Shown here: piece after piece, positions 574 through 54,128 of the stretch
How positions within the stretch are numbered: the first letter of the stretch is position 1
Layout of the letters: each line of letters begins with the position of its first letter
Assembly (NCBI RefSeq): GCF_000739065.1
Contig: NZ_CP009149.1
Span: forward strand, 434,001 to 498,000
Direction of reading: 5' to 3'
Source of the DNA: Methanocaldococcus bathoardescens
Lineage (GTDB): Archaea; AGJL01; Methanococci; Methanococcales; Methanocaldococcaceae
Length of the DNA: 64,000 nucleotides
Notes under the pieces: generated by a model
Told to the model about the DNA's origin: nothing
The model's database searches: none
What the model saw: the letters and a program-made list of their open reading frames with translations, nothing else
Made by a program: the position numbers and the translations under genes

Positions 574-685
574 TATAGTTTTTTGCAAAGGTTATTAAAA
601 TTAAAAAAGGAAAATTGAACGCTCCCAAATTTGGGAGCATTCATATATACCTTATTTATTCCAAAATGTTTTGCAAAAAACTATA
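574..685. repeat. Nested palindromic element, type A, copy 1
   Basis: A 112-bp element bounded by perfect inverted repeats TATAGTTTTTTGCAAA / TTTGCAAAAAACTATA. Its centre is the hairpin 617-642 (GAA, GCTCCCAAA, TTTGGGAGC, TTC). Its flanks are A+T-rich and read TTTTAATAA...AAGG on one side. Reversed, it aligns along its whole length with the copy at 33922-34032. It lies between L31e and a small reading frame. Confidence 0.85.
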
Positions 686-728
686 GTTCTATATTATTTC
701 TTTTTTCTATATTTTATTTTAACTGCTT

Positions 729-908
729 TTAATCTTTAATGGATTTTATATACTCATCTCTTTTAGTTTTTAACTCATTTATCTCATTATTTATGTGCTC
801 TACCTCTTCATCATCTTTATATGATTCTAAAAGCCACTCTAACCTCGTTATTTTTCGTTCAATATCTCTAATGTGTTTAACTATTATTTTTCTTTCATTC
901 TCTTTCAT
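729..908 (-). CDS. Small charged helical protein, 59 residues, unknown function
   Basis: The frame runs from ATG 908 to TAA 729 and reads MKENERKIIVKHIRDIERKI, then RLEWLLESYKDDEEVEHINNE and a Lys-rich end. Almost half of the residues are Glu, Lys, Arg or Asp with hydrophobic residues in heptad-like spacing, so a short coiled coil is likely. The ribosome binding site is weak (AGGTCAT). I do not recognise a family. Codon use (AAA, ATA, GAA) matches the neighbours. It could be a real small gene or a chance open frame in A+T-rich DNA. Confidence 0.5.
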   Translation of the reverse strand: MKENERKIIVKHIRDIERKITRLEWLLESYKDDEEVEHINNEINELKTKRDEYIKSIKD

Positions 909-1011
909 TTTATGACCTACAAACTAAAATTTAAGATTTTTTAAAGTTTAAGAATTACTACTTTATGTCAAATACAATATAAAGCTTTTTATTACATTTT
1001 TTGCATTTCAA

Positions 1012-2193
1012 TCAATCTTTTTTAATAATTTTTAATGTTTCAATAAGATTGTCAATATGTTCTTTTTTAATGTGTGGCATAACAACAATCCTCAAAGCTT
1101 TAACACAATTACAAACTGAGACATAAATACCTCTATCTCTAAGTTTTTTGCAAATTTCTTTATAATCTTCATCCTCAATTGCAACAATATTTAATATTGG
1201 CTCAATAACAGGCTTAAAATTATTTTCTTTTAATTTTTTATAAAGATAAAGAGTATTTTCCATGCACTCACTAACTATCTTTCTCTGCCCTTCTCTACCT
1301 AAATATCTTAGAACAGCATAAGTGCAAGCCCCTCCAAATCCTACTCTTGTTCCTAAAATTGTTGCTTGCCTTGTTTCTGTTAGATAAGGGGCATTGACAT
1401 CCAAATATTTTTTATAACTCATATCTTTAAACAAAATCCCTCCACTTGGTATTGGACAGTGTCCCATTTTATGAGGGTCTATAGTTATGGAATCAACTCC
1501 CAAAGAGAAATCAAACTTATAATTTACTCCTTTTTTCTTGTATTTATCCTCTAAAAATGGGATTACAAAGCCACCAAATGCCGCATCTACATGAATATAA
1601 ATATCATTTTCCTTAGCTATTTTGCTTAGCTCTTCTATATTATCTATAGTTCCAAGCTCTGTTGTTCCTGCTATTCCAATAATTCCATCTATTTCATAAT
1701 CTTCTACAGCATCCCTAACGAATTTTTCATCTATTGTATAATCTTTCTTAATTGGGGCATATATATAATCTAAATCCATCATATCTCTTCCTTTTTCAAA
1801 TGAAAAATGGGCAGTTACTGGAATAATAATTTTTGGACGCTCATTTTTTGATAATCCTTTTCTTTTTTTCTCTCTCCAAATGTTTTTTATACACCTCAAT
1901 GCCATTAAGTTGGCTTCAGTTCCTCCACTAACTATATGCCCATAGGCATTTTTATTGTTTAACAAAGAGCCTAATAATGCTATGGCTTTTTCTTCCAACA
2001 ATTTAGTTCCTTTAAATAATCCAGGGTCTCCCAAGTTTGTTTCTAAGAACATATCCACAATTTTTCTCGTTATTGGCAATATATTTGAGCACATTGAACC
2101 GAAAATCTTTCCATCCTCATACTTTAAATCCAAATCTCTGTATTTAATTAACTCCTCCAAAATTTCTCTCTCACTAACGCCCTTTTCTTGCAT
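1012..2193 (-). CDS. mfnA: L-tyrosine/L-aspartate decarboxylase MfnA
   Basis: A 393-residue group II pyridoxal-phosphate decarboxylase. The PLP lysine lies in [18 protein letters not shown], preceded by [12 protein letters not shown], where the Asp contacts the pyridine ring; [11 protein letters not shown] is the phosphate-binding region. In methanogens MfnA makes tyramine for the methanofuran core and can decarboxylate aspartate to beta-alanine for coenzyme A. The start is ATG 2193, three codons inside the longest frame, because the upstream GTGAG is the ribosome binding site. It diverges from the CBS gene, and a palindromic element lies in the shared upstream region. Substrate choice cannot be read from sequence alone. 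Confidence 0.9.
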
Positions 2194-2270
2194 AATTCTC
2201 ACGTTTATAGCTCTATATATTTTAGAATAATTATAGTAATATTACTAAAATAAATATCTATTAGGAACTT

Positions 2271-2287
2271 TGAAGCTGAAAGCTTCA
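2271..2287. repeat. Small perfect hairpin next to type A element
   Basis: TGAAGCTGAAAGCTTCA forms a 7-bp stem (TGAAGCT / AGCTTCA) with a 3-base loop, three bases outside the left end of the element at 2290. It resembles the unit hairpins of the arrays at 4094 and 22329, so it may be a single-unit remnant. Confidence 0.55.
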
Positions 2288-2289
2288 AT

Positions 2290-2397
2290 TATAGTTTTTT
2301 GCAAAACATTTTGAAATATATGGGGCATTTATGAACCTCTTTTTAATAAGACATTCAAATTTTTTTATAATTTTAATAACTTTTGCAAAAAACTATA
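2290..2397. repeat. Nested palindromic element, type A, copy 2
   Basis: A 108-bp element with terminal inverted repeats TATAGTTTTTTGCAAAA on the left and TTTTGCAAAAAACTATA on the right (17 bp, perfect). Its central hairpin is weak (GAACCTCTTTTTAATAAGACATTC), so this copy looks eroded in the middle while its ends are intact. It sits between the divergent mfnA and CBS genes, where promoters must also lie. Confidence 0.8.
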
Positions 2398-2490
2398 AGT
2401 CAATACAAAATTCTTCAGCTTTATATATTATTTTTTGCTAATAATATTATAAAGAAAATTAAGGTAGGTATTTACCAAATTGGTGGCATA

Positions 2491-2985
2491 ATGGTAACTG
2501 ATGTTCCAGTAGTAGTTGCTATGTCAGAACCCCTATTTATTAAAAGCTATATTTCAGCTTATGATGCAATGAAAATGATGATAAATAAGGGAAAAAGATA
2601 CTGTATCCTCCTTGATAAAAATAACATTCCTGTGGGGATAGTTACAATAACTGATATTATAAAGCATATTCTCTTAGAGAAAGTACCTCCAGAAGATGTT
2701 GAAGTTTATGAAATAGCTACAAAAAAAATTATAACTATCTCTCCAGATACATCAATAGAGGAAGCGTTAGAAATTATGAAAAAATATGGAGTATCAAAAT
2801 TACCAATAGTGGATAAAGGAAAAATTGTTGGGATAGTAACTGAAAATGAACTAATAGAGCTTCTACCATATATAATAGAGCCTTTAAAAGAACTTGTAGA
2901 TTATCTAATAGATATAATTAATAGTGAATTACAGGAATCGAGTAAGAAAAAAGAAATTATAAAAATGTTATCAAAAACCAAATAG
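2491..2985 (+). CDS. CBS-domain pair protein
   Basis: A 164-residue protein made of two tandem CBS motifs (about 15-65 and 75-125), with the typical GIVTITDI and [10 protein letters not shown] strand-helix ends, and a C-terminal helix. Such stand-alone pairs usually bind adenine nucleotides or S-adenosyl compounds and act as energy or metabolite sensors; the ligand here is unknown. The longest frame begins at 2383, but GGTGGCATA before ATG 2491 marks the real start and the extension overlaps the palindromic element. The pth2 gene follows after 17 bp, so the two may be co-transcribed. Confidence 0.8.
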
Positions 2986-3002
2986 GTAGTTATAGTGAGA
3001 TT

Positions 3003-3350
3003 ATGAAAATGGTGGTAGTTATAAGAAATGATTTAGGTATGGGAAAAGGGAAAATGGTAGCTCAGGGAGGACATGCGATAATAGAAGCTTTCTTAGATGC
3101 TAAGAAGAGGAATCCAAAGGCTGTTGAGGAATGGTTAAGAGAGGGACAGAAAAAGGTTGTGGTTAAAGTAAACTCTGAAAAAGAATTAATAGATATTTAC
3201 AACAAAGCAAAAAGTGAAGGTTTACCTTGCTCAATAATTAGAGATGCAGGACATACACAATTAGAGCCAGGAACTTTAACTGCTGTTGCTATAGGTCCAG
3301 AAAAGGATGAAAAGATAGATAAAATTACAGGACATTTAAAACTTTTATAA
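3003..3350 (+). CDS. pth2: Peptidyl-tRNA hydrolase Pth2
   Basis: 115 residues, the usual length of the archaeal/eukaryotic Pth2 family. The conserved blocks are visible: [20 protein letters not shown], the central [12 protein letters not shown] and the C-terminal [22 protein letters not shown]. It cleaves the ester bond of peptidyl-tRNA dropped from ribosomes and recycles tRNA. A GTGAG motif precedes the start codon. The gene follows the CBS-pair gene closely and converges with the rhodanese gene, with only 8 bp between stop codons. Confidence 0.95.
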
Positions 3351-3358
3351 AAATAGAT

Positions 3359-4048
3359 TTATTGTTTATTTTGCCTATTTTCTTTATTTATTGCGTGTTT
3401 AAATGCTTTAAATCCACCTATCAATCTTTTAACTTTAAATCCTAATAGTTGCAAAATTAAAGCCATTGTTTGACTTCTCATCCCCCCTCTTGCACAGAAA
3501 ATAACAATTAATTTATCCCTATCAAGCTTTTTTGCCTCATTTAAAATCCTTTTTAATCCTCTTTCAATAATATCTGTGGCTATATCCATAGCTTTTTCTC
3601 TACCTTCTTGTTTATACACTTTTCCAATTAATGCATGTTCTTCATCTAAAAATAGAGGAATATTTATAGCTCCTGGGATTGTATCCTCCTTATACTCCCT
3701 TGGACTTCTTGTATCTACTATAATAACATCTTCCCGATTCATTAATTTCAAAAGGTCATTAACAGTTATGGTATTTTTAACAAACTCTCCACCAATGGAC
3801 TTTAAAAACTTGTTAATATCTATTCTTTCAAAGTATATGTCGTAATCTTTAAATTTCTTTATACCAACCTTTTTATCTTCTAAAAATTCTTTAGAAGCGT
3901 TTAATATAAAAGAGGCCAGCTCTCCCTCAATTTTTCCAGCTAATATTTTTTTACCATTTGTTATCATCTTCCTCCCATCGTTTAAAACAATGCATAAAAC
4001 AACATCCTCCGTAAATGTTATTAGCCGAGCTAAAATCCCCTCGTCCAT
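3359..4048 (-). CDS. selU-N: tRNA 2-selenouridine synthase, rhodanese half (SelU-N)
   Basis: 229 residues. Residues 1-90 form an N-terminal domain I do not recognise; 93-225 is a rhodanese domain with the catalytic loop [10 protein letters not shown] (Cys185) and the [10 protein letters not shown] entry motif. The Cys-x-x-Gly-Gly-x-Arg-Ser loop is the form found in YbbB/SelU rather than in ordinary sulfurtransferases. In several archaea SelU is encoded by two genes, a rhodanese part and a P-loop part, and the P-loop part lies just upstream here (4303-4956). The pair should convert 2-thiouridine to 2-selenouridine in tRNA using selenophosphate. The pairing is inferred from motifs and context. 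Confidence 0.75.
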
Positions 4049-4064
4049 GTTTTCTCCCTCAAAT

Positions 4065-4307
4065 TATAGTTTTTTGCAAAATGTCTTAGAAGAAATTTTT
4101 AGAAAAAGTTAAATAAAAACTCTTCGAGTTTTTATAGCTGGAAAGCTTCGCTTTCCATTTCATCAAAAATTATTGGTGGGAGTATGCCAATAGGGGGCGT
4201 AGCCCTCTATGGTTGTTAAAATATCTTGGAATGAATAATGTAATTCTGAAGCTCTTTAGAGCTTCAAATATGCCTTTTAACTTTAATAAGTTCTGCAAAA
4301 AACTATA
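4065..4307. repeat. Nested palindromic element, type A, copy 3, enlarged
   Basis: 243 bp bounded by TATAGTTTTTTGCAAAA and TTCTGCAAAAAACTATA. The inner part near the right end (TTCTGAAGCTC, TTTA, GAGCTTCAA, then TGCCTTTTAACTTTAATAA) matches other type A copies. The left half is replaced by a hairpin array (4094-4219). The right terminal repeat contains the TAG stop codon (4303-4305) of the upstream P-loop gene. Confidence 0.8.
4094..4219. repeat. Tandem hairpin array H1, inside type A element
   Basis: Three GC-capped hairpins in a row: AAAAACTC-TTC-GAGTTTTT (4115-4133), GGAAAG-CTTCG-CTTTCC (4140-4156) and ATAGGGGGCGTAGCCCTCTAT (4190-4210). TATAGC separates the first two, and TTTCATCAAAA follows the second. 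The same separators and the same CCAATAGGG...CCCTCTATGG unit occur in the arrays at 22329 and 37606. The array begins next to TTTTTAGAAAAAGTT, a motif also seen at the other two arrays. Confidence 0.7.
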
Positions 4308-4956
4308 AATTATGCTTCTTTAATTTTTCTTTAATAAATTCATCTATCATTTTAGCTGATTTTTTGACATCTTCATTGTAAATTACTAAATCAGGTTTTA
4401 TTTTTCTCACATTTCTCATGTAATGTTCTCTATAAAGTTTTTCTTCAATTAATTTTGCCGCTTCATAGTATCTATCCTGTTTTATAAGTTCAATAATTTT
4501 TTCCACAGCCTCAATCATTTCAGGTTTTTTAAAACTTCCCCTCAATATCAAAAATTTGTTTATCAAAATTTCTTTCTCTTTTTCATTCTTTGGTTTGTAA
4601 ATAGAGATTAATCTGTTTATTTGACATTCATAAGGGCAGTCAATTAAGATTTTGTAGGTGTAGTTTTTAATATCCGCCAACAACTCAGGAATTTTTAGCT
4701 TTTTCTCTCCACCAATCTTTCTTCCTTCGTATTCAACTACTGCATAGCCAATTTGTTTAGCTTTTTCAATCTCTTTATTAATAAGTTCATCAAACTCTTC
4801 CTGAGTTCTCATACTTAAGTGATATAAATCTCCTAAAATACTTCCTCTTGTTCGCGCAATTTCTTCAATATCTATTACAGGATGATATTTTTTTAATTCT
4901 TGTAATATCTCAGTCTTTCCACAGCCTGTTTTTCCAAATAATCCAAAGATAATCAT
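4303..4956 (-). CDS. selU-C: tRNA 2-selenouridine synthase, P-loop half (SelU-C)
   Basis: 217 residues with a Walker A motif GKTGCGKT (8-15). It continues with IDIEEIARTRGSILGDL, QEEFDELINKEI and VVEYEGRKIGGEKKLKIPEL, blocks that line up with the C-terminal ATPase-like half of bacterial YbbB/SelU as I remember it. This domain binds the tRNA for geranyl/seleno exchange of 2-thiouridine. The rhodanese partner follows on the same strand (3359-4048), separated by a 243-bp repeat. The stop codon TAG lies inside that repeat's terminal sequence, so the last residues may have been set by its arrival. An unrelated small kinase is a less likely reading. Confidence 0.75.
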   Translation of the reverse strand: MIIFGLFGKTGCGKTEILQELKKYHPVIDIEEIARTRGSILGDLYHLSMRTQEEFDELINKEIEKAKQIGYAVVEYEGRKIGGEKKLKIPELLADIKNYTYKILIDCPYECQINRLISIYKPKNEKEKEILINKFLILRGSFKKPEMIEAVEKIIELIKQDRYYEAAKLIEEKLYREHYMRNVRKIKPDLVIYNEDVKKSAKMIDEFIKEKLKKHNL

Positions 4957-5128
4957 AGTTTCACCGCTATATCTATCTCATGTTTTAGTATAAATATGTT
5001 ATTAAAAATGCTGATACATACAAATTATTGTTTTTGGTATCATAACAATGTTCTTTAAAAAATAAATAATAAATTGACTTAAAGCAAATCCAGAAACATT
5101 TTAAACAATGTTAAAGATGTATTAAAAA

Positions 5129-7144
5129 TTATTTTTTAATTATCTCACACCCTCCAGGGGGGAGAACTCTTAAAATATCCTCATCATCAATACCATAATT
5201 TTTAAATATCTCTTTAAGCTCTTTAACAACCTTTCCTTTCTCTTTATTTGAAGGTTTTAATAAAACCCATTTAATAAAGCTTTTTTGTAATGTTTTTGGC
5301 GGAGCTGTTGTTATTTTTATATCCCCATCGTATTCAATAACTCCAATACCCAACTCTAAGGGTGTGTTTCTATAATAATGCCTTTCCCCTCTAATTACAA
5401 ACGCTCCTCTTTTTAAATACTCCCCACTTTCAGCTGTTTTTGATATTTGCTCTGGTTTAACCCAATAAGTGTCTATAGCCCCATATCCAAGCTTCCAAGC
5501 TCTTGAATGAGAGACAGAAAATTTAGCAACCTCTTCCAATGTTTCTTCATCAACCTCCTTTCCTCCAGTTTTTATAACTGTAAATGGAGCCCCTTGAATA
5601 TCTGCGTGGAATACAATATCATCTTTATCAGTGTATTTTTTAATAATAATCTCATTTGTTATTGCATCTTTTCCAGCAATAACCAAAAATCCATTAATAA
5701 CAGTCCATTTAAACTTCTCATACCATTTTCTCTCTTTTCTTACTTTCTTCTTCATCTGCAAGTTTTCTTTTTCTTTTAACTCTTTTTCTCCTTTCTTTTT
5801 AAGTTCCTCTATCTTCTTTTTAGTTAGCTCAATAGCATTTTCTATTCCTTCAATTTTACCTCTCAACTTTTTAGCCTTTTCATAATAGCTTTCAGCATTT
5901 TCAAAGGCATTTTTTCTTATATCTAAAGAAACTCTTTCTTCTATAACATTGTCATCAACTTCAGATTTTAATCTAATAACTATTTCCCCAACATTTTCAT
6001 TTATATTTTCAATCAATCCCAAAATTGGATGCTCTTTATTTTCTCTAATTATCTTTTTTATTCTTGCCCAGTCCATTTTTTCTCTTGCTTGTCTTATAGC
6101 ATTTAATAGCTCTTCAACAATTTGATAGTTTGCATAGATTAAATCACCTTTAATTTGGTTTTTCTCTGCATCTTCTTTATACTTCTTCAAAGTTTCTAAC
6201 TGCCTTTTCAATATATTTTCTTGCCTCTCAATTTCTCTCTCAATTTTTGATTTTTCTTTTTTAACTTCAACTTTTGTTAAAAATTTAGCAAAATAATCAT
6301 CAACTGCCTCTAAAAAACTATTGTAATACTTTTTCTCTAAACCCTCGTATTTTTTTAAATCAATAGGTACAACGTCAAAGTATTCATTGTCCTTTAAAAC
6401 AATCTGTGGCTTTCTATTGTTAAAAATTTCATTAAATAGATTTTTAGAAGCTTCAAAGAGCTTTTTAATCTCTTCTTCACTTAAATCTTTCTTTTTCTTA
6501 TCTATTCCTGCCCTTTCACAAATTTCTTCAGCGTAAAGCCCACCAATACCAAAAACTCTTGATATTAATCTAACGCACTCAACCCCTTTATTATTTAAGA
6601 AATAATCTTTAAATACCTCATAAGCGATAGAAAACTCTAAATTATATGGGTTTAATGGTTTCTGTGGAGGAAATTTATATTCTTCCTTTGGAACTATATT
6701 TCTTGAGCTCCATCTCTCGACTCTAAGTGGGGCTATAATTATATCCTCACTATTCAAAAATATGATATTTCCATCACCAAACAGCTCAGCAACCAATTTA
6801 TAAATCCCATCTCTTGTTTCGAAGTGGAAAATAACAATTCTATCAAAATTTACTTGCTCAATTTTTATTAATTTAGCATTTTTTAAATATTTTCTTAATA
6901 ACATGGCAAAAGATGGGGGAAGTTTTGGTTTTTCCCTTTCATAATTTGTTAAAGTTATATATTTATATTTACCAATACTTATAACAAGCTCTCTACTTCC
7001 TCCTTCAGGAACATGGATTTTTAATATCAATTCCCTGTTCTGCTCATTATCAATTAAAAATGCTTTATCCAATCTACCATTAACTAAGTTTTGTAATTCA
7101 TTTACAACACAACATACATCTACGTTAGTCATCTCACTCTTCAT
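5129..7144 (-). CDS. rqcH: Rqc2/RqcH-like ribosome quality-control protein (NFACT family)
   Basis: 671 residues with the NFACT order: N-terminal NFACT-N domain (1-220, with VDVCCVVNELQNLVNGRLDK), a helix-hairpin-helix segment (about 170-240, VFGIGGLYAEEICERAGID), a long coiled coil (about 280-470) and the C-terminal NFACT-R domain (about 475-600, KWYEKFKWTVINGFLVIAG and the DIQGAPFTVIK block). The family binds stalled large ribosomal subunits and peptidyl-tRNA; in bacteria and eukaryotes it adds C-terminal tails. The archaeal activity is inferred. GGTGAAATT precedes ATG 7144. It diverges from the HEAT-like gene over 57 bp. Confidence 0.88.
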   Translation of the reverse strand: MKSEMTNVDVCCVVNELQNLVNGRLDKAFLIDNEQNRELILKIHVPEGGSRELVISIGKYKYITLTNYEREKPKLPPSFAMLLRKYLKNAKLIKIEQVNFDRIVIFHFETRDGIYKLVAELFGDGNIIFLNSEDIIIAPLRVERWSSRNIVPKEEYKFPPQKPLNPYNLEFSIAYEVFKDYFLNNKGVECVRLISRVFGIGGLYAEEICERAGIDKKKKDLSEEEIKKLFEASKNLFNEIFNNRKPQIVLKDNEYFDVVPIDLKKYEGLEKKYYNSFLEAVDDYFAKFLTKVEVKKEKSKIEREIERQENILKRQLETLKKYKEDAEKNQIKGDLIYANYQIVEELLNAIRQAREKMDWARIKKIIRENKEHPILGLIENINENVGEIVIRLKSEVDDNVIEERVSLDIRKNAFENAESYYEKAKKLRGKIEGIENAIELTKKKIEELKKKGEKELKEKENLQMKKKVRKERKWYEKFKWTVINGFLVIAGKDAITNEIIIKKYTDKDDIVFHADIQGAPFTVIKTGGKEVDEETLEEVAKFSVSHSRAWKLGYGAIDTYWVKPEQISKTAESGEYLKRGAFVIRGERHYYRNTPLELGIGVIEYDGDIKITTAPPKTLQKSFIKWVLLKPSNKEKGKVVKELKEIFKNYGIDDEDILRVLPPGGCEIIKK

Positions 7145-7201
7145 AATTTCACCAGAAAAGTTTATTTATCTCTCTTATGATATTTTATTATTTGTGATAA
7201 C

Positions 7202-13191: not shown

Positions 13192-13701
13192 ATGAAAAGT
13201 GTAATAAAGGGAAAAGTTTGGAAGTTTGGAGATAACGTAGATACAGATGCTATATTGCCAGCAAGATACTTAGTTTATACAAAACCTGAAGAATTAGCTC
13301 AGTTTGTTATGACCGGAGCAGACCCTGAATTTCCAAAGAAAGTTAAGCCAGGAGATATAATAGTTGGAGGAAAGAACTTTGGTTGTGGTTCGAGTAGAGA
13401 ACATGCCCCATTAGGATTAAAAGGGGCTGGAATTAGCTGTGTTATTGCTGAGAGTTTCGCAAGAATATTTTATAGAAACGCTATTAACGTTGGATTGCCA
13501 TTGATTGAATGTAAAGGAATTTCAGAGAAGGTTAATGAAGGAGATGAATTGGAAGTTAATTTAGAAACTGGAGAGATTAAAAACTTAACTACTGGAGAGG
13601 TTATGAAAGGAAATAAATTGCCAGAGTTTATGATGGAAATTTTAGAGGCAGGAGGATTAATGCCATATTTAAAGAAAAAAATGGAAGCTAAAAGTCAATA
13701 A
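13192..13701 (+). CDS. leuD: 3-isopropylmalate dehydratase small subunit LeuD
   Basis: 169 residues of the aconitase swivel domain family, with [21 protein letters not shown], the [12 protein letters not shown] loop and [16 protein letters not shown]. The loop after ARYL reads VYTKPEE; a YLVY loop is found in M. jannaschii LeuD (MJ1277), whereas YLRT marks the homoaconitase subunit, which is encoded separately at 19668. It pairs with a large iron-sulfur subunit not in this window for leucine synthesis. The start is ATG 13192 behind AGGTGGGAATT; the longer frame starts on the GTG of that site. Confidence 0.9.
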
Positions 13702-14305: not shown

Positions 14306-15967
14306 ATGATAAGTGATAGAGTAAAAAAAGGAATAAAAAGAGCACCAAATAGAAGTTTATTAAAAGCTTGTGGATACACAGATGAAGAGATAGACAGACC
14401 TTTTATTGGAGTTGTTAATAGCTTTACAGAAGTAGTTCCGGGACATATTCATTTAAAAGATATTGCTGAGGCGGTTAAAAAAGGAATATACGCAAATGGA
14501 GGAACAGCTTTTGAATTCAACACAATGGCAATATGTGATGGAATAGCAATGGGTCATGAGGGGATGAGATACTCTCTTCCATCAAGAGAGATTATTGCAG
14601 ATACTGTAGAAAGTATGGCAAAAGCTCATGGATTTGATGGTTTAGTTTTAATTCCAAGCTGTGATAAAATAGTTCCTGGAATGATAATGGGGGCTATAAG
14701 AACTGGATTACCATTTATAGTTGTTACTGGAGGGCCAATGTTCCCTGGAGAGTTAAGAGGAAAGAAGTACGATTTAATTAGTGTATTTGAGGGAGTTGGG
14801 GCTTGTGCAGCTGGAAAAATTACAGAGGAAGAGCTTAAAGAGATAGAAAATATTGCTTGCCCTGGAGCTGGTAGTTGTGCAGGTTTATTTACCGCAAATA
14901 CAATGGCTTGCCTAACTGAAGCTATGGGATTGTCTCTTCCTTACTGTGCAACAGCACACGCAACAACTGCAGAGAAAATAAGGATAGCAAAGAAAAGTGG
15001 GATGAGAATAGTTGATTTAGTTAGAAATAATATAACCCCAGATAAGATTTTAACTAAAGAGGCATTTGAAAATGCTATATTAGTAGATTTAGCTTTAGGG
15101 GGTTCAACAAACACAACCTTACATATCCCAGCAATAGCAAATGAAATAAAGCCAAAATTTGTAACATTAGACGATTTTGATAGGTTATCAGATGAAGTTC
15201 CACACATAGCTTCTTTAAGACCTGGAGGAGAGCACTTTATAATTGATTTACATAGAGCTGGAGGTATTCCTGCTGTATTAAAAGTTTTGGAAGAGAAGGT
15301 AAGAAAAGAATGCCTAACAGTTAGTGGAAAAACAGTTGGAGAGATTATTAAAGAAGTTAAATATATTGACCATAATATTATCAGATCAATAGACAATCCA
15401 GTCCATGAAACAGCTGGTTTGAGAATATTGAAGGGAAGTTTAGCACCTAATGGAGCAGTAGTTAAAATTGGAGCTGTGAATCCAAAGATGTATAAACATG
15501 AAGGACCTGCAAGAGTGTTTGATAGTGAAGAAGAGGCAGTTGATGCAATATTGGGAGGAGATATTGAGAGAGGAGATGTTGTAGTTATTAGATATGAAGG
15601 GCCTGCAGGAGGGCCAGGGATGAGAGAGATGTTGGCTCCAACCTCAGCAATATGTGGAATGGGGTTGGATGATTCAGTGGCATTAATTACAGATGGTAGA
15701 TTCAGTGGAGGTAGTAGAGGGCCTTGTATTGGACACGTTTCACCAGAAGCAATGGCTGGAGGGCCGATAGCGATAGTTGAGGATGGAGATATAATTAAAA
15801 TAGATATGATAAACAAAAGATTAGATTTAGCTTTAGATGAAGAAGAGATTAAAGAAAGATTAGCTAAATGGAAAAAACCTGAACCAAAGGTCAAAAAAGG
15901 TTACTTAGCGAGATATGCTAAGCTTGTAACATCAGCTGATGAAGGGGCTGTGTTAAGATACGATTAA
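14306..15967 (+). CDS. ilvD: Dihydroxy-acid dehydratase
   Basis: 553 residues, the normal length. Iron-sulfur ligand motifs are visible: [25 protein letters not shown], and the C-terminal [23 protein letters not shown]. It makes 2-oxo acids for valine, isoleucine and coenzyme A synthesis. The start ATG 14306 follows GAGGGATAAA; the longest frame starts 30 bp earlier inside vapC. The stop codon TAA (15965-15967) lies within the terminal repeat of the palindromic element at 15964-16062. Confidence 0.95.
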
Positions 15968-16062
15968 TAGGACTTTCGCAGGAATAAAATTCTTTTAAGG
16001 AACTAATGCCCAAAGGCATATAAATCCTTAATAAATAATATAAACTGCGAAAGTCCTATTAA
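15964..16062. repeat. Nested palindromic element, type B, copy 1
   Basis: 99 bp with perfect 18-bp terminal inverted repeats TTAATAGGACTTTCGCAG / CTGCGAAAGTCCTATTAA. Inside are a second palindrome (TTAAGGA...TCCTTAA) and a central ATGCC-CAAA-GGCAT hairpin. It separates the convergent ilvD and antiporter genes and contains the ilvD stop codon. It aligns end to end with the inverted copy at 54034-54128. Confidence 0.88.
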
Positions 16063-19671: not shown

Positions 19672-20162
19672 GCTTTTACACCTTTTTTTGATTTTAGGTA
19701 ATTAACTAATCCTCCAGCATTTAATATTTCTCTTTCTAAACCTTTTGGTGTTTCACATTTTATTGTTTTGTTTTTATTGATTATTTTAATTTCTTCCTTA
19801 TCTAAATCAATCTCAACTATGTCTCCATCTTCAATCTCATCAGTATTTGCCATTATTGGTATCAATCCAACATTAATAGCATTTCTATAGAAAATTCTTG
19901 CAAAACTTTTTGCTATAACTGCCTTAATTCCACAATATTTTATTGCTATTACAGCTTGTTCTCTACTTGAACCACACCCAAAGTTTTCTCCTGCAACTAT
20001 TACATCTCCTTCTTTAACTTTTTTTGGGAAGTTTTCATCAATCCCCGCCATACAGTGTGAAGCTAATTCATAAGGGTCTGTAGTTCTTAAATAAGGCCCT
20101 GGGATTATTGCATCTGTATCTATATCATCCCCAAATTTGTGAGCTCTTCCTTTAATAATCAT
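19668..20162 (-). CDS. hacB: Homoaconitase small subunit HacB
   Basis: 164 residues, aconitase swivel domain with [33 protein letters not shown] and [16 protein letters not shown]. The loop YLRT is the signature that lets the M. jannaschii enzyme (MJ1271) accept homoaconitate chains of different length in 2-oxosuberate synthesis for coenzyme B; LeuD (13192) has YLVY instead. It works with a large HacA subunit elsewhere. It starts an apparent operon with a PTPS-like gene and bpsA, joined by overlapping stop/start codons. Confidence 0.9.
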
Positions 20163-22461: not shown

Positions 22462-22565
22462 TAACCAATTATCAAAGTTTTTAATTATTGTAAGGCACTT
22501 ATAGAAGCTCCTTTAGAGCTTCTAAATATTCCTTAATAGACAATATTTCCTTTGATAATTGGTTA
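22462..22565. repeat. Nested palindromic element, type D
   Basis: 104 bp with perfect 16-bp terminal inverted repeats TAACCAATTATCAAAG / CTTTGATAATTGGTTA. The centre is GAAGCTC-CTTTA-GAGCTTC flanked by TAAGG...CCTTA. The architecture equals types A and B although the terminal sequence is different. A further hairpin AATTAG-AGCTTTCAGCC-CTAATT follows at 22568-22590. Confidence 0.8.
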
Positions 22566-32068: not shown

Positions 32069-32177
32069 TATAAGTGTTTTTCAAACTTAATAAACTTTAT
32101 TAAGGAATAGGTATAAAAGCCCTACGGGCTTTTATAATGTACCTTTTTTAAAAATTATATTTTGAAAAACACTTATA
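32069..32177. repeat. Nested palindromic element, type E
   Basis: 109 bp with perfect 17-bp terminal inverted repeats TATAAGTGTTTTTCAAA / TTTGAAAAACACTTATA. The interior has TTAAGGAATAGGTA...TGTACCTTTTTTAA around the central TAAAAGCCC-TAC-GGGCTTTTA hairpin. It lies upstream of aIF2 gamma and downstream of S6e. Confidence 0.85.
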
Positions 32178-33921: not shown

Positions 33922-34032
33922 TATAGTTTTTTGCAAAATGTCTTGTAATGAATAAGGTATATATGAACGCCTCCAAATAGGAGGCGTTCAAAATTTCCTT
34001 CTTAATTTTAATAAGTTTTGCAAAAAACTATA
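33922..34032. repeat. Nested palindromic element, type A, copy 4
   Basis: 111 bp with 17-bp terminal inverted repeats TATAGTTTTTTGCAAAA / TTTTGCAAAAAACTATA. The centre is GAACGCCTCC-AAATA-GGAGGCGTTC (33965-33989). It aligns in reverse orientation with copy 1 (574-685): there the stem is GCTCCCAAA, here GCCTCC, with both arms changed together. It lies between pyrH and the histone gene. Confidence 0.88.
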
Positions 34033-37773: not shown

Positions 37774-39072
37774 TTATAATAACTTCTTACTTTCTTCTGT
37801 GAGAGCTAATTTATTAATTCTACCTATTTTTTCTTTTCTTATTATTTTTCTATCTTCTAATTCAGATATAATCCTTGAAACCTTTGGTTTGCTCATTCCA
37901 GTAATTTCAACAATTTCTTTTTGAGTTATATGTCCATGTTTTTTTATCAAGTCAATTATAATTTTTTCATCTTCAGTCAAAAAGCTCCACAAAACCCCTC
38001 TCTTTAACTCCATATGTTTTTCTACAATGTCATTTAGTTTTTTGACCTTATCTTTTAACTCTTCATTCTCTTTCTTTAATTTTTCAATATATTTATTCAA
38101 CGAATCAATATTTTCTTTATATTCAGTATTTTCATCCACGAGTTTTTGTAGTCTACTTTCATATTCTGAAATCCTTTCATTTAACACTCCAATAATCTCA
38201 TCTTTATTTAATAAGTTTTTATTGGCTTTACTTAGCTTATCTTCTAAATCTTTTATTTTTATTGTTAAATTTTTAACCTCATCTTCTTTTTCTTTTAATT
38301 TATCTTTTAGCTCATTTAATTCATTTTTTATGTTTTCAGTCCCTTCTATAATCTTCTTTTTAGAAATTCTCTCTCTAACAAACAATCCCCCAAATATTGC
38401 AGCCCCAAATATTGCAATTATTAAGAGGTATTTCAAATTATTGTTAATTGCTGGCTGTTCTATGATATTTTGTTCTGGATAAGATATGAAAGTATATTTC
38501 ACAGTAATTGTGAAAGTTATTTCTTTATTTAGGGACAAATCCCAGATAATGATTTGATGTTTTCCATCGGTAGTTATTTTATATCCAGAAGGGGTTACAA
38601 GCAAAGTTCCCTGTGGTGATGATATAACTGCCCCTGGGGGAAGAATTACTTTTATAGTGGCGTTTTTTGCAGAGATTGGAAAGTTCATGATGAGTTGCTT
38701 AATATCATTTCTTGTCCAGATTGCATCAGTAACTAAACAATTAAATGTTACATTTGCATACTCATTTGGCGGTAGTGGTTTTTCAAATTCTACAGCAATT
38801 TCGGTAATTCCCTCATTATATAAAGCACTATACCCCCTAATGTTTATAGAAGATTCTATTGTGAAATTTTTAATGTTTTGAGGAATTGTATAGGTTATGC
38901 TACTCAAATTTTTATTATCGTTATTGTATATCACCATAGTTATTGTTTCATTTATTGTATCGTCAGGGTTAACTATACATTCAATATCTATCCTCTCAAT
39001 AGTATATGCAAAAGATACGTTTGCAAATAAAAGAAAGAAAAATAAAAACATTAAAAATTTTTTAGGTTTAAT
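37774..39072 (-). CDS. Membrane-anchored protein with coiled coil and C-terminal winged helix, ATT start proposed
   Basis: About 432 residues. From N to C: a signal peptide (KPKKFLMFLFFFLLFANVSFA), an extracellular beta-rich domain (about 25-210), one membrane helix (about 210-230, YLLIIAIFGAAIFGGLF), a cytoplasmic coiled coil (about 245-355) and a winged-helix DNA-binding domain (about 365-430, ITQKEIVEITGMSKPKVSRI). This is the COG2512-type layout of a predicted membrane-bound transcription factor. The longest frame starts with GTG inside AAGGTGAT; four bases after that motif stands ATT (39072-39070), giving a proper signal peptide. ATG 39051-39049 is an alternative. Confidence 0.78.
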   Translation of the reverse strand: MKPKKFLMFLFFFLLFANVSFAYTIERIDIECIVNPDDTINETITMVIYNNDNKNLSSITYTIPQNIKNFTIESSINIRGYSALYNEGITEIAVEFEKPLPPNEYANVTFNCLVTDAIWTRNDIKQLIMNFPISAKNATIKVILPPGAVISSPQGTLLVTPSGYKITTDGKHQIIIWDLSLNKEITFTITVKYTFISYPEQNIIEQPAINNNLKYLLIIAIFGAAIFGGLFVRERISKKKIIEGTENIKNELNELKDKLKEKEDEVKNLTIKIKDLEDKLSKANKNLLNKDEIIGVLNERISEYESRLQKLVDENTEYKENIDSLNKYIEKLKKENEELKDKVKKLNDIVEKHMELKRGVLWSFLTEDEKIIIDLIKKHGHITQKEIVEITGMSKPKVSRIISELEDRKIIRKEKIGRINKLALTEESKKLL

Positions 39073-43903: not shown

Positions 43904-44014
43904 TGGTGGGGGTGCTGGGATTTGAACCCAGGTCCAGGGATTTCTCCTGCCATGGTCCAGCGCCCTATAGGCAACTGGAGTCCCCGATGATAGACCTGGC
44001 TACACCACACCCCC
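43904..44014 (-). tRNA. tRNA-Trp (CCA) with canonical intron
   Basis: Exon 1 is 44014-43975, a 33-base intron 43974-43942 and exon 2 43941-43904, giving a 78-base product including an encoded CCA end. The acceptor GGGGGTG pairs with CACCCCC, the T arm is CTGGG-TTCAAAT-CCCAG and the anticodon arm GGGGA-CTCCAGA-TCCCT has CCA. The intron follows position 37. The precursor folds into a perfect bulge-helix-bulge: central helix CTCC/GGAG, bulges AGT and AAA, outer helices TGCC/GGCA and GGGA/TCCC, exactly placing both cuts for the splicing endonuclease. Confidence 0.96.
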
Positions 44015-45719: not shown

Positions 45720-45832
45720 AACTTAATCACCCCAATGCAATATTTCAATAAACTATTTTGTTACTATATTATATAATTTTAACGTAAAAAATAACATACA
45801 TCACATACTTAATAGTATTAGAAAATCAAATG

Positions 45833-45850
45833 AAAAACTTTATATTATAC
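45833..45850 (+). promoter_or_regulatory. Promoter of the atwA operon
   Basis: GAAAAACTTTATATTATA shows a BRE-like A tract and a TATA box about 50 bp before ATG 45896. The next four genes follow without a comparable signal, so this is probably the operon promoter. Confidence 0.5.
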
Positions 45851-45895
45851 AATTTTAACAGTTAAAGTGTAACTTTTCCACATAAGAGGGATATT

Positions 45896-46234: not shown

Positions 46235-46246
46235 AGGTGAGGATAA

Positions 46247-46573: not shown

Positions 46574-46588
46574 AAATGAGGAGATTAT

Positions 46589-46963: not shown

Positions 46964-48564
46964 TACTATTGGAAGTTAAAAATGTCTCAAAAAAATTTGG
47001 TGATAAGGTAGTTTTAAAGAACATATCATTTACATTGGAAGAAGGAGAATCATTAGGGATTTTGGGGAAGAGTGGAGCTGGAAAATCAGTTTTATTACAT
47101 ATGTTAAGAGGAATGGATGGATATGAACCAACTGAAGGGCAAATAATTTATCATGTCTCTTATTGCGAAAAATGTGGTTATGTAGATGTTCCTTCAAAGG
47201 CAGGAACCCCATGTAAAAAGTGTGGAGAAGAGCTTAAAAAAATAGAAGTAGATTTTTGGAATGATAAAAAATACACCTATAATTTAAAAAGAAAAATTGC
47301 TATAATGCTTCAGAGAACTTTCGCTTTATATGGAGAAAAATCAGTTCTTGAAAACATCTTAGAAGCTTTACATCAAGCTGGCTATGAAGGAAAAGAAGCT
47401 ATTGATATGGCATTGAAATTAATTAAGATGGTTAAGTTAGAGCATAGAATAACCCACATTGCAAGAGATTTAAGTGGGGGAGAAAAGCAGAGAGTAGTTT
47501 TAGCAAGGCAAATAGCTAAAGAGCCATTTATATTTTTAGCTGATGAGCCAACTGGAACTTTAGACCCTCAAACTGCTAAATTAGTTCACTCAGCTTTAAA
47601 AGACCTCGTTATTAAAAATAAGATAAGCTTAATTTTAACATCTCACTGGCCAGAAGTTATTGCTGAACTAACTGAAAAAGCAGTTTGGTTAGAGAAAGGA
47701 GAAGTTATAATGGAAGGTACTTCAGAGGAGGTTGTTAATAAATTCATGGAAACAGTTAAAGAGTTTAAAAAACCTGATGTAGAGATTGAGATTAAAGAAG
47801 ATATTATAAAATTAGAAAATATTTCAAAGCATTACTGTTCTGTTGAGAGAGGGGTTGTTAAAGCAGTTGATGGAGTAACATTAAACATTAGAGAGAAAGA
47901 AATCTTTGGTTTAGTTGGAACTAGTGGGGCTGGAAAGACAACATTAGCAAAGATTATTGCCGCTGTATTACCACCTTCAAAAGGAAAGTATTGGTTTAGA
48001 TTAGGGGATGAATGGGTTGATATGACTCAACCAGGACTCACTGGAAGAGGAAGAGCTAAAAGATATATTGGTATATTGTTCCAAGAATATGCTCTCTATC
48101 CACATAGAACTATATTGCAAAACTTAACAGAGGCAATAGGTTTAGAACTTCCAGATGAATTTGCAAGAATGAAGGCAGTTTATACACTAACATCTGTTGG
48201 ATTTAGTGAAGAAGAAGCAGAGGAAATTTTAGATAAGTATCCTCATGAGTTGAGTGTTGGAGAAAGGCATAGATGTGCTTTAGCCCAAGTTTTAATAAAA
48301 GAGCCAAGAGTTGTTATCTTAGATGAACCAACAGGGACAATGGACCCAATAACAAGAAATACAGTTGCTGAATCAATTCATAAATCAAGGGCTGAGTTAG
48401 AGCAAACCTACATTATTGTCTCACACGATATGGATTTTGTATTGAATGTTTGTGATAGAGCGGGATTGATGAGAAACGGTAAGTTAATTAAAGTTGGTAA
48501 GCCAGAGGAAATTGTTGCCTTATTAACTGAGGAGGAGAAGCAAGAGATGTTTGGGCAGAAATAA
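46960..48564 (+). CDS. atwA: Methyl-coenzyme M reductase system component A2 (AtwA)
   Basis: 534 residues with two ABC ATPase domains. NBD1 (1-250) has Walker A GKSGAGKS, signature LSGGEK and Walker B FLADEPTG; inserted after Walker A is a zinc ribbon ([14 protein letters not shown] plus CKKCGEE, about 67-86). NBD2 (285-530) has [15 protein letters not shown] and VILDEPTG. AtwA uses ATP to reduce the nickel of F430 to Ni(I), activating MCR, the methane-forming enzyme. The stop TAA (48562-48564) lies inside the type B element. Upstream genes are likely regulators or partners. Confidence 0.93.
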
Positions 48565-48659
48565 ATAGGACGGACGCACTTTTATAATTAATTTGGAACT
48601 TAGAAGCCAAAATGCTTAAATATCCAATAGAACAACTTTCTCTGCGTTCGTCCTATTTA
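48562..48659. repeat. Nested palindromic element, type B, copy 3
   Basis: 98 bp. The left end TAAATAGGACGGACGCA and the right end TGCGTTCGTCCTATTTA pair with one G-T wobble. Compared with copy 1, three positions differ on the left (GAA for TTT in the reverse reading) and the right side has matching changes. The atwA stop codon is inside the left repeat, and the convergent gene stops four bases beyond the right. Confidence 0.82.
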
Positions 48660-48662
48660 AAT

Positions 48663-49340: not shown

Positions 49341-49424
49341 AAACTCACCACAAAAAAGTTTAAATAATTAGCAATAACTACTCTCATTTTAATAAAAATA
49401 ATATTTAATGATGAAGGTGATATC

Positions 49425-50792
49425 TTGGAATTTTCAGAATGGTATTCAGATATATTAGAAAAAGCTGAAATTTATGATGTTAGATATCCAATAAAGGGTT
49501 GTGGAGTTTATTTACCTTATGGATTTAAAATAAGAAGATATACATTTGAAATAATAAGAAATTTGTTAGATGAAAGTGGGCACGATGAAGCTTTATTCCC
49601 AATGTTAATTCCAGAGGATTTGTTAGCTAAAGAAGGAGAGCATATAAAAGGATTTGAAGATGAGGTTTATTGGGTAACTCATGGAGGAAAAACACCATTG
49701 GATGTTAAATTAGCTTTAAGACCTACATCTGAAACCTCTATCTATTATATGATGAAACTTTGGGTTAAGGTTCATACAGATTTGCCAATAAAAATCTATC
49801 AAATAGTAAATACATTTAGGTATGAAACAAAACACACAAGACCTTTAATTAGATTAAGAGAGATAATGACATTTAAAGAAGCTCATACAGCACATTCAAC
49901 AAAAGAAGAGGCAGAAAAGCAAGTTAAAGAAGCAATATCTATCTATAAAAAATTCTTTGATACTTTAGGCATCCCATACTTAATTTCAAAAAGACCTGAG
50001 TGGGATAAGTTTCCAGGGGCAGAATATACAATGGCCTTTGATACAATATTCCCAGATGGTAGAACAATGCAGATAGCAACAGTTCATAACTTAGGGCAGA
50101 ACTTCTCAAAAACATTTGAAATTATATTTGAGACACCTACTGGAGATAAAGATTATGCTTATCAAACATGTTATGGAATCTCTGATAGGGTTATTGCCTC
50201 AATTATAGCAATACATGGAGATGAGAAAGGTTTAGTTCTACCACCAATAGTAGCACCAATTCAAATAGTTATTGTCCCATTAATTTTCAAAGGAAAAGAA
50301 AAAGAAGTTAATGAAAAAGCTAAAGAGTTATATGAGAAATTAAAAGGTAAGTTTAGAGTCCATATAGATGATAGAGATATAAGACCTGGAAGGAAGTTCA
50401 ACGATTGGGAAATAAAAGGTGTTCCATTGAGAATTGAAGTTGGACCAAAGGATATTGAGAATAAAAAGATAACCTTATTTAGAAGAGATACAATGGAGAA
50501 GTTCCAAGTTGATGAAACCCAATTAGAGGAGGTTATAGAAAAAACTTTAAATAATATTATGGAAAACATTAAGAATAGAGCATGGGAAAAATTCGAAAAC
50601 TTTATAACTGTCCTTGAAGATATAAATCCTGATGAAATTAAAAAAATACTATCTGAAAAGAGGGGGGTAATTTTAATTCCATTTAAGGAAGAGATATACA
50701 ATGAAGAACTTGAAGAGAAAGTAGAAGCGACTATTTTAGGAGAGACAGAATATAAAGGTAATAAATATATAGCAATAGCTAAAACCTACTAA
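49425..50792 (+). CDS. proS: Prolyl-tRNA synthetase
   Basis: 455 residues, archaeal/eukaryotic type: [17 protein letters not shown], then class II motif 2 [17 protein letters not shown] and motif 3 [16 protein letters not shown]-associated anticodon domain [26 protein letters not shown]. No editing domain and no N-terminal extension are present. The start is TTG 49425, preceded by GAAGGTGATATC. Confidence 0.95.
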
Positions 50793-50905
50793 ATCTCTAT
50801 CTTTATCTTTTCTTATTTTTAATGGCTTATGAAGAGGACAAAATTTTTATCTATAGAAATCAAAAAGCTTTGGAATAGAAATAATTTAATATTCAAGGTG
50901 AAAAA

Positions 50906-51580
50906 ATGGATGCTATGAAAGGAACAACTACTGTTGGTTTAATCTGCGATGATGCAGTAATTTTAGCGACCGATAAAAGAGCGTCATTAGGTAATTTAAT
51001 AGCTGACAAAAATGCAAAGAAATTATACAAAATTGATGATTATATAGCATTAACAATAGCGGGAAGTGTTGGAGATGCTCAGGCAATAATTAGGCTTTTA
51101 ACTGCCGAGGCAAAACTATATAAAATGAGAACTGGAAAAAATATTTCTCCATTGGCATGTGCCACCCTATTAAGTAATATATTACACTCAAGCAGATACT
51201 TCCCTTTTTTAACCCAAATAATTATTGGTGGCTATGATTTATTAGAAGGGGCTAAATTATTTTCATTAGACCCATTAGGAGGAATGAATGAAGAGAAAAC
51301 ATTTACTGCAACAGGTTCAGGTTCCCCAATAGCATATGGGGTTTTAGAAGCTGGATATGATAAAGATATGCCCGTTGAGGAAGGAATAAAATTAGCTATA
51401 AAAGCATTAAAATCAGCAATGGAGAGAGATACATTTTCAGGAAATGGTATATCATTAGCTGTTATAACAAAAGAAGGAGTTAAGATATTTGAAGATGAAG
51501 AAATTGAAAAAATTTTAGATAGTATGAAATCAAAATCTAAGAAAAAAACCACAAAAAGAAGTAGAAGAAAAAGTAAATAA
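50906..51580 (+). CDS. psmB: Proteasome beta subunit
   Basis: 224 residues. Residues 1-6 are a propeptide ending in Gly, and cleavage exposes the catalytic Thr7 ([23 protein letters not shown]), with Asp and Lys of that segment completing the site and [10 protein letters not shown] near the end. The last 20 residues are unusually basic ([16 protein letters not shown]). It makes the inner rings of the 20S proteasome; the alpha subunit is elsewhere. GGTGAAAAA precedes the start. Confidence 0.95.
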
Positions 51581-51800
51581 ATTAAATTAAATGATTGATA
51601 AAAATTATTAAAAATTAAATTAAAAACTGATAAATTTTAAAAAAGAAATAAAAAAATTCTATTTAATTTAATTAAATTAATTAAATCTATTTTGTGCAAT
51701 TTTTTAATTTTAAGATTTTTTCATTGAATTATAACAATTATCAAAATTTTCAATTTAAAAACACACTGCAGATTTTTAAAAGTTAAGGAGGAGGATTATT

Positions 51801-53705
51801 TTGTCAGCAGAGGAAATTTTAGAAAATATAAAGAAAGAGGTAATAAAAAAATCACCAAAAGAGGCGAAAATAGTTGATGTTCAGTTTGAGGGGCCTGAAG
51901 TAGTTGTCTATGTAAAAAATCCAGAAATTTTTACAAATGAGATTATTAAAAACCTTGCTAAGGATTTAAGAAAGAGAATTTCCATAAGACCAGACCCATC
52001 TGTTTTAGTTGAGCCAGAAATAGCTAAAAAGAAAATTTTAGAAATTGTTCCTGAAGAAGCAGAGATAACAAACTTTGTTTTTGATGCAAATACTGGAGAG
52101 GTTATAATAGAATCAAAAAAACCTGGATTGGTTATAGGTAAAGAAGGAAAGACATTAGAGATGATTAAAAAAGCAATAAGATGGGCACCTAAGCCAGTAA
52201 GAACCCCACCAATACAATCAGAAACAATTAAAGCAATTAGAGCTACACTTTATAGAGAAAGACATGAAGTTAAAGAAATTTTAAGAAGAATTGGAAGGAG
52301 AATACATAGAGATATAATTGTTAGAGGAGATTATTGGATAAGAGTGTCTTTTTTAGGAGGAGCGAGAGAGGTTGGTAGGTCTTGCTTGTATGTTCAAACA
52401 CCAGATACAAGGGTGTTAATTGATTGTGGTATTAATGTTGCATGTGAAGATAAAGCATTTCCCCACTTTGATGCCCCAGAATTTTCAATTGAAGATTTAG
52501 ATGCTGTTATAGTTACTCACGCTCACTTAGACCATTGCGGTTTTGTCCCTGGTTTATTTAGATATGGTTATGATGGCCCTGTTTATTGCACAAGACCTAC
52601 AAGAGATTTAATGACTTTATTACAAAAAGATTATTTAGAGATTGCTAAAAAAGAAGGCAAAGATGTCCCTTACACTTCAAAAGATATAAAAACGTGTGTT
52701 AAGCATACAATACCAATTGATTATGGAGTTACAACAGATATAAGTCCAACAATAAAATTAACTCTACACAACGCTGGGCATGTCCTTGGCTCAGCTATAG
52801 CACATTTGCATATAGGAGAAGGGTTGTATAATTTAGCATACACTGGAGATATCAAGTTTGAGACATCAAGGTTGTTAGAGCCAGCTGTTTGCCAATTCCC
52901 AAGATTAGAGACGTTGATAATTGAATCCACTTATGGGGCTTATGATGATGTTTTGCCAGAGAGAGAAGAGGCAGAGAGAGAATTGTTAAGAGTGGTTAGT
53001 GAAACAACAGATAGAGGAGGAAAAGTTTTAATTCCTGTCTTTGGTGTAGGAAGAGCTCAAGAGCTGATGCTTGTCTTGGAAGAAGGATATAATCAAGGCA
53101 TATTTAATGCTCCAGTGTATTTAGATGGGATGATTTGGGAGGCTACTGCTATACATACTGCATATCCAGAATACTTATCAAAGGAGATGAGGCAGAAGAT
53201 ATTCCACGAAGGAGATAATCCATTCTTATCTGAGGTATTTAAGAGAGTTGGAAGCACAAATGAGAGGAGGAGGGTTATCGATAGTGATGAGCCATGTATA
53301 ATTTTAGCAACATCTGGAATGCTTACAGGAGGGCCGAGTGTTGAATATCTAAAACACTTAGCCCCTGATGAGAAAAATGCAATAATATTTGTTGGTTACC
53401 AAGCAGAGGGAACTTTGGGAAGAAAAGTTCAGAGAGGTTGGAAAGAAATTCCAATCACAACAAGAAATGGAAAGACAAAATCAATTCCAATCAATCTACA
53501 AGTTTATACAATTGAAGGATTTTCAGGGCATAGTGATAGAAAGCAGTTAATTAAATACATTAGAAGATTGAAACCATCACCAGAAAAAGTTATTATGGTT
53601 CATGGAGAGGAGAGTAAGTGCTTAGATTTTGCAGACACTGTGAGAAGGTTGTTTAAAAAACAAACTTATGTGCCAATGAACTTGGATGCAATAAGAGTTA
53701 AGTAA
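51801..53705 (+). CDS. fttA: KH/beta-CASP ribonuclease FttA (aCPSF1)
   Basis: 634 residues: two KH-like domains (1-170, including GLVIGKEGKTLEMIKKAI), then a metallo-beta-lactamase/beta-CASP domain with VTHAHLDHCGF zinc motif, HNAGHVLGSA, IESTYGAYDD and FSGHSDRKQL, ending with the C-terminal dimer segment. In archaea it cuts nascent RNA and terminates transcription with Spt4/5. The start is TTG 51801 after AGGAGGAGGATTATT, a strong site. No gene lies in the 220-bp A+T-rich gap before it. Confidence 0.93.
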   Translation: MSAEEILENIKKEVIKKSPKEAKIVDVQFEGPEVVVYVKNPEIFTNEIIKNLAKDLRKRISIRPDPSVLVEPEIAKKKILEIVPEEAEITNFVFDANTGEVIIESKKPGLVIGKEGKTLEMIKKAIRWAPKPVRTPPIQSETIKAIRATLYRERHEVKEILRRIGRRIHRDIIVRGDYWIRVSFLGGAREVGRSCLYVQTPDTRVLIDCGINVACEDKAFPHFDAPEFSIEDLDAVIVTHAHLDHCGFVPGLFRYGYDGPVYCTRPTRDLMTLLQKDYLEIAKKEGKDVPYTSKDIKTCVKHTIPIDYGVTTDISPTIKLTLHNAGHVLGSAIAHLHIGEGLYNLAYTGDIKFETSRLLEPAVCQFPRLETLIIESTYGAYDDVLPEREEAERELLRVVSETTDRGGKVLIPVFGVGRAQELMLVLEEGYNQGIFNAPVYLDGMIWEATAIHTAYPEYLSKEMRQKIFHEGDNPFLSEVFKRVGSTNERRRVIDSDEPCIILATSGMLTGGPSVEYLKHLAPDEKNAIIFVGYQAEGTLGRKVQRGWKEIPITTRNGKTKSIPINLQVYTIEGFSGHSDRKQLIKYIRRLKPSPEKVIMVHGEESKCLDFADTVRRLFKKQTYVPMNLDAIRVK

Positions 53706-53807
53706 AGGTAAAGTTTAAATAGCATAATCTGCTATTATCTCAATCAATGTTTTTATAATAATAAAAAGAGAATAAAACACAAATCAAGGATTTTAAGGTG
53801 ATAAATT

Positions 53808-53993
53808 ATGTCAAAAGGTACTCCATCAATGGGTAAAAGAAACAAAGGTTCATATCATATAAGATGTAGAAGATGCGGAAGAAGAGCTTACCATGTAAGA
53901 AAAAAGAGATGTGCCGCATGTGGATTTCCAAATAAAAGAATGAGAAAATACTCATGGCAAAACAAAAAAGTTAATGGTAGAAGAATAAGATAA
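53808..53993 (+). CDS. rpl37e: Large ribosomal subunit protein L37e
   Basis: 61 residues: [20 protein letters not shown], then a four-Cys zinc finger [10 protein letters not shown]...CAACG and a very basic end [17 protein letters not shown]. It binds 23S rRNA. GGTGATAAATT precedes the start. A type B element separates it from aIF2 beta. Confidence 0.96.
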
Positions 53994-54033
53994 GTTATAC
54001 CTAATTATTTTCTTTTTTATATCGAAGTTTTAT

Positions 54034-54128
54034 TATAGAACTTTCACAGTTTATATATTTATTAATGAATTTTGATGCCAAAGGCATCCTTCTGCAATAT
54101 AAAATTTTATTCCTGCGAAAGTTCTATA
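54034..54128. repeat. Nested palindromic element, type B, copy 2
   Basis: 95 bp with ends TATAGAACTTTCACAG and CTGCGAAAGTTCTATA. In reverse it aligns with copy 1 (15964) along its length: shared CGCAGGAATAAAATT, ATGCC...GGCAT and TTAATAAAT. The terminal GGAC/GTCC of copy 1 is GAAC/GTTC here, a paired substitution; one G-T wobble remains. Confidence 0.85.

Follow-up and report, generated by a model that had tools for sequence, protein, structure and literature searches.

In a 64,000-nucleotide stretch of the Methanocaldococcus bathoardescens genome (positions 434001 to 498000 of NZ_CP009149.1; here called the window, whose numbering is used for all elements unless a position is marked as genome), nine palindromes each fold into a nested hairpin. 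The reading that we favor, with a probability of roughly 80%, is that they are non-autonomous miniature inverted-repeat transposable elements (MITEs) of at least two origins, whose arms have since been kept complementary through a hairpin-dependent process. Families F1 and F3, and probably F4 (the labels follow the end types), would be miniature derivatives of a TA-inserting IS630-type transposon, and F2 would go back to a transposon of the IS701 type with a 5-bp target duplication. After insertion, the complementary arms would be maintained by a process that requires the hairpin only; we infer polymerase template switching between the arms, in which one arm is corrected from the other and the interior is sometimes flipped, and such correction would explain why the ends differ from copy to copy yet are self-complementary. 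Mobilization and insertion are supported by ends that match those of transposons, by target duplications and exact empty sites, and by one case of nesting. The comparison set was 36 Methanococcales genomes (handles of the form G011, with G000 for the genome of the window), including G003, which we take to be M. jannaschii; G006, presumably near strain FS406-22; and G011, a Methanocaldococcus metagenome-assembled genome (4571-419 bin.033).

The elements are 95 to 112 bp long except for the third, which has 243 bp. F1 ends (TATAGTTTTTTGCAAA) are found at 574-685 (minus strand, an IS630-type MITE of 112 bp with TA...TA ends), at 2290-2397 (plus strand, 108 bp), at 33922-34032 (plus strand), and on the enlarged copy at 4065-4307 (plus strand), which contains extra hairpins, including a CCAATAGGG...CCCT unit. 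F2 ends (TAGGACTTTCGCAG) mark three IS701-type MITEs. At 15964-16062 (plus strand), the TA and core occupy 15968-16058 and the palindrome is prolonged by flanking target-duplication bases; the divergent copy at 48562-48659 (plus strand) has both arms altered together (GGACGGACGCAC / GGACGAACGCAG); and the copy at 54034-54128 (minus strand) has a GAAC variant in both arms and is not in the orthologous interval of G006. F3 ends (TATAAGTGTTTTTCAAA) occur at 32069-32177 (plus strand) and F4 ends (TAACCAATTATCAAAG) at 22462-22565 (plus strand), the latter within a second repeat unit, CGTCCATTTA...GGGCTTTCAGCCC. Reexamination bore out the coordinates, the sizes, and the four end types given in an earlier, sequence-only reading of this DNA. 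Seven of the elements have perfect terminal repeats of 15 bp or more; the arms at 48562 and 54034 are imperfect. In all, the window has 8 perfect terminal inverted repeats that are 15 bp or longer and span 70 to 320 bp, against 0.2 expected from third-order Markov simulations; they consist of these seven elements and 38864-39060. This last is a perfect 16-bp inverted repeat with a span of 197 bp and without F1 to F4 ends.

The inner AAGG...CCTT pair, said earlier to be present in most copies, is clear in F1 (9/18), F3 (8/12), and F4 (3/6), with about 0.1 expected, but weak in F2 (3/28). Since this pair surrounds a GC-rich stem well above shuffles in F1, F3, and F4, and since enlarged mosaic elements and nested insertions occur, one might suppose a single ancient lineage in which a central AAGG-stem-CCTT cassette common to all families gained differing transposon ends, whether through recombination or because one element inserted into another. 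We regard this as unlikely: F2 has a different stem besides its few AAGG/CCTT copies, and F1 and F3 are already of common IS630-type origin, so that their common middle needs no swap. The similar central stems may reflect either common ancestry or weak selection.

The nine copies are a sample of genome-wide families. When the genome was searched with one member per family, many further copies were found, and the stretches examined around elements yielded a catalog of 70 (20 F1, 14 F3 or its subfamily F3b, 30 F2, and 6 F4). They are short and non-coding with terminal inverted repeats, and they show the dispersed copies, target-site duplications, and empty orthologous sites that are traits of MITEs. 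All but three of the catalogued elements (67/70) are intergenic, and all four orientations of neighboring genes are occupied, including divergent genes, which rules out a terminator role as a general explanation. Some copies are found near stop codons, as would be expected of single-gene transcription terminators, but we give almost no credence to terminators or to chance palindromes as an account of about 70 copies with family-specific sequences, some of them between divergent genes, and both are refuted by the exact empty orthologous sites.

At 32069, an element is present in G000 and G003, and G006 reads ...CTGTAAAATAGTATTTCC... with one TA at the exact place, so the element lies between two TA copies made from one. 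The element at 33922 is likewise present in G000 and G003 with an exact single-TA empty site in G006, and other F1 and F3b copies have the same pattern. Thus, F1 and F3 insert at TA with duplication of the TA. F4 probably does so too: the G003 site of one F4 copy is empty (AACTTAATGG), inside another repeated unit, and fits TA insertion to within one base. For F2, a 2-bp TA duplication is ruled out because direct repeats of 5 bp flank the TA-core-TA unit (z = 6.6), and the central target base, N3, is identical in 37/53 copies, compared to 14.8 expected. At the site of element 15964, G006 has an F3-type element with an F2 element nested inside it.

The sequence-only reading had proposed a search for a transposase gene with matching ends. 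Such genes were found in G011 and in G034 and G035, but none was found in G000 or G003. PF13358 transposases occur in 2 of the 36 genomes, G030 and G011, and the G011 gene, the sole one in the genus Methanocaldococcus, belongs to the IS630 family (NF033545, 145.7 bits; cut-off, 100) and is flanked by TATAGTGTTTTTCAAAATGTTTTGGAAAA and TATAGTTCTTTTCAAAATATTTTGGAAAA. The left 30 bases of this element match an F3b copy (721517) at 25/30 positions and the right end of the F1 copy at 574 at 25/30. Thirteen related IS630 loci were tested, and the six with a detectable inverted repeat all had TATAGT ends. F1 and F3 thus show both the TA target duplication and the transposon-shared ends of IS630-derived MITEs. 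No ends like F1 to F4 were found at the IS630 relatives in G030, and no match to an IS630-type transposase was found in G000 or G003.

G011 also has a PF01609 gene, flanked by GAACTTTCGCAA ends that lie 1122 bp from each other; it matches NF049921 and DDE_Tnp_2, which groups it with IS701. Its close relatives are intact in G034 and G035, with ends TAGGACTTTCGCAA and 5-bp duplications (AACTT, TTTTA, and GAGAT), so F2 and the IS701-type element have the same ends and the same length of duplication. G034 (order Methanococcales) carries this type of element many times over, in both complete and decayed form (26 matches). No IS701-type relative was found in G000 or G003, and the PF01609 genes of these two genomes have no F1 to F4 ends at transposon distance. 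Viral contigs scanned for the element ends by pattern gave AT-rich chance matches, which were not used. The idea that the elements were MITEs mobilized by several transposases is thus supported, with an IS630 type as the probable source for F1 and F3, an IS701 type for F2, and target duplications that differ between them.

The F2 target duplication offers a built-in control for what happens after insertion. Because insertion duplicates host bases N1 to N5, the left and right copies are identical at the start, and the inner pairs (N4-left:N2-right and N5-left:N1-right) are initially as complementary as the outer pairs (N2-left:N4-right and N1-left:N5-right). We scored 72 F2 copies drawn from three genomes and found complementary bases at the inner pairs in 69/72 and 65/72 copies and at the outer pairs in 34/72 and 44/72. 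The N3:N3 pair, which is unpairable if intact, is complementary in only 11/72 copies, showing that pairing ends at the unpairable base. In the 44 copies with decayed duplications, 78/88 inner and 35/88 outer pairs are complementary (P = 9e-12), although 4- or 6-bp duplications also occur, shift the register, and lower the outer count somewhat, and this decayed set is partly affected. The asymmetry between identical halves, of which the hairpin-adjacent one alone stays paired, indicates that hairpin-contiguous pairing continues to be maintained once the element has inserted, and that this extends to host bases. At a site that is empty in G003 (GCATTATTTGAGG), both G000 and G006 have GCATTG-TA[F2]TA-CA; as we read the alignment, the element-adjacent base has changed from A to G and pairs with the C opposite. 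No pairing was seen beyond the TA in F1 and F3b.

These data also bear on whether ordinary MITEs, with no palindrome maintenance in situ, could suffice, the covariation then coming from master subfamilies together with a preference for palindromic targets. F2 targets are in fact palindromic in part (TTCAA and AACTT are examples among the perfect duplications), and certain arm variants, such as F3b (TAGTGTCTTTC), represent inherited subfamilies. However, a target preference would act equally on inner and outer halves, so palindromic target choice alone is ruled out as the source of the paired F2 flanks, and intact IS701 copies also have non-palindromic duplications (GAGAT and TTTTA). We therefore think this account improbable. 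The sequence-only reading had reserved the term ordinary MITEs for copies that share ends with an insertion sequence and lack covariation; the ends are shared, but the covariation remains. Its score is 0.176 in F2 (28 copies), compared to 0.097 in shuffles, and 0.218 in F1/F3/F3b (24 copies), compared to 0.078; none of 500 shuffles reached the observed score in either case. In the central stem of F1/F3/F3b, 8/11 pairs have changes on both sides. Covariation by itself is no proof of structure, because the shuffle control keeps relatedness.

Template switching between the arms of inverted repeats is known to homogenize the arms and to invert spacers (PMC8604942). Arm homogenization is seen here, as described above. 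To look at the spacers, we compared eight pairs of occupied orthologous sites, leaving out two pairs that are not the same insertion (G000 527461 with G006 L125, and G000 449970 with the nested element of G006). The orientation is the same in five pairs (G000 copies 11200, 738887, 1582906, and 509471, and the G003/G006 pair at 102608). In the other three, the interior is inverted between matching flanks: at 32069 (G000 and G003; inverted score of 40.5 versus direct score of 20.5), at 33922 (G000 and G003; 22.5 versus 18.5, with subterminal markers also swapped), and at 703962 (G000 and G006; 23.5 versus -4.5). Spacer inversion is thus strong in one pair and comes with caveats in two.

It had also been suggested that the element is structure-selected; the hairpins would then be kept by selection as an RNA stem-loop or as a DNA cruciform or protein site, and the MITE origin would be mere history. 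There is partial support for this: the central stems and arms covary strongly, the arms are unusually conserved and evolve more slowly than the flanks in orthologous copies, and a GC-rich central stem, mostly with AAGG/CCTT, is common to families with different ends. Nevertheless, pairing is kept in copy-specific, host-derived bases up to an unpairable one, and interiors are inverted in some orthologs, both of which point away from an RNA or a nucleoid site. Furthermore, the elements occupy every gene orientation, including sites between divergent genes, and their distribution across the genus is patchy. An Rfam scan of the window gave only a tRNA over threshold and matched no element, and G-U and A-C mismatches in the F2 outer stem (7 versus 3), too few to tell selection from correction, show no clear G-U excess. 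Selection on structure as the main explanation thus seems doubtful to us.

Several observations weigh against the reading of MITEs with hairpin-maintained arms. No parent transposon with F4 ends was found. The IS701 assignment depends on the G011 gene, whose score of 209.6 bits is under the NCBIfam cut-off of 250 because its frame is broken, and in G011 a frameshift interrupts both the IS630 and the IS701 copy. In the IS630 gene, the frameshift is at AAAAAAG, an A6G slippery sequence (L142:1140-1180) at which the frames would be joined by a -1 shift, so it may be either programmed or a mutation. Among the inversions, the score margin at 33922 is small, and the divergent pair at 703962 may represent two independent insertions at one site. 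Finally, arms of orthologous pairs differ at 6/212 positions (2.8%) and their 60-bp flanks at 76/935 (8.1%; P = 0.005), in a small sample whose flanks mix coding and non-coding DNA, with interiors differing at 87/534. A slower rate of change is not expected from arm correction that is unbiased, and the arms may therefore also be subject to selection or to ectopic conversion between copies. Template switching is a proposed cause, and a function of the elements would likewise be hypothetical. On balance, we lean slightly toward the wider view that these archaeal MITEs have been remodeled where they sit by DNA synthesis on hairpin templates, which would produce covariation without RNA, and that the arms are possibly also under selection as domesticated hairpins in genomes that no longer have the transposases.

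Other repeats were found alongside these families. All six F4 copies (22462-22565 and genome positions 131601, 738887, 1085946, 1306413, and 1433537) are inside the same type of conserved repeat unit, CGTCCATTTA...TATAAGTTGGGGCTTTCAGCCCCAATTAATGTCC, and the hairpin of this unit has compensated variants (GGGGC/GCCCC and GCCTC/GAGGC); G003 holds one such unit without F4. Short GC-rich hairpin units of another family (CCAATAGGG...CCCTATGG and TTTCATCAAAA...) are present at 4188 and at many intergenic sites, with 19 matches to CCAATAGGG in the 371 kb examined, frequently adjoining or within MITEs. The intergenic spot at genome position 861315 has an F1 element in G000 and an F2 element in G003 (L268) and G011 (L251), which suggests an insertion hot spot. 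Elsewhere in the window, a tRNA match at 43907-44014 spans 108 bp, compared to 71 positions in the model, and the gene is probably intron bearing; a 168-nt inverted repeat with 78% identity (13330-13497 and 19863-20030, 6.4 kb) probably represents two paralogous genes on opposite strands.

Suyama, Lathe, and Bork reportedly described the MJRE palindromic repeats of M. jannaschii in 2005 (FEBS Lett 579:5281), as 141 elements in three groups. Those repeats are from the same genus, palindromic, and reportedly of similar size, and G003 carries many F1 and F2 copies. In the literature searched, we found no account of parent transposons, duplications, or arm maintenance for MJRE-like repeats. The IS701 family (archaeal ISC1217-like), to which the DDE transposase matches point, has the ends TAGGACTTTCGCA in common with F2; the family is listed with a 4-bp duplication, compared to 5 bp here. 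IS630/Tc1-mariner-derived MITEs are alike in size (100 to 200 bp), TA termini, AT-richness, and a long stem-loop (PMC2229807, which also cites the M. jannaschii palindromic-repeat precedent). In contrast to them, the parent was not found here in the main carriers, the inner GC-rich stem covaries, and interiors are inverted in some orthologs. Arm homogenization and spacer inversion are also features of quasipalindrome correction by template switching (PMC8604942 and PMC7202029), which those sources describe in yeast, bacteria, and phage; for these archaeal MITEs, we infer it from sequence alone. Palindromic MITEs are thus a known kind, to which our analysis would add target duplications, evidence for palindrome maintenance in place, and probable IS630-type and IS701-type parents for repeats known in Methanocaldococcus since 2005. 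Covariation is commonly taken as proof of RNA structure; in these elements, it appears to be better explained by a mutational process.

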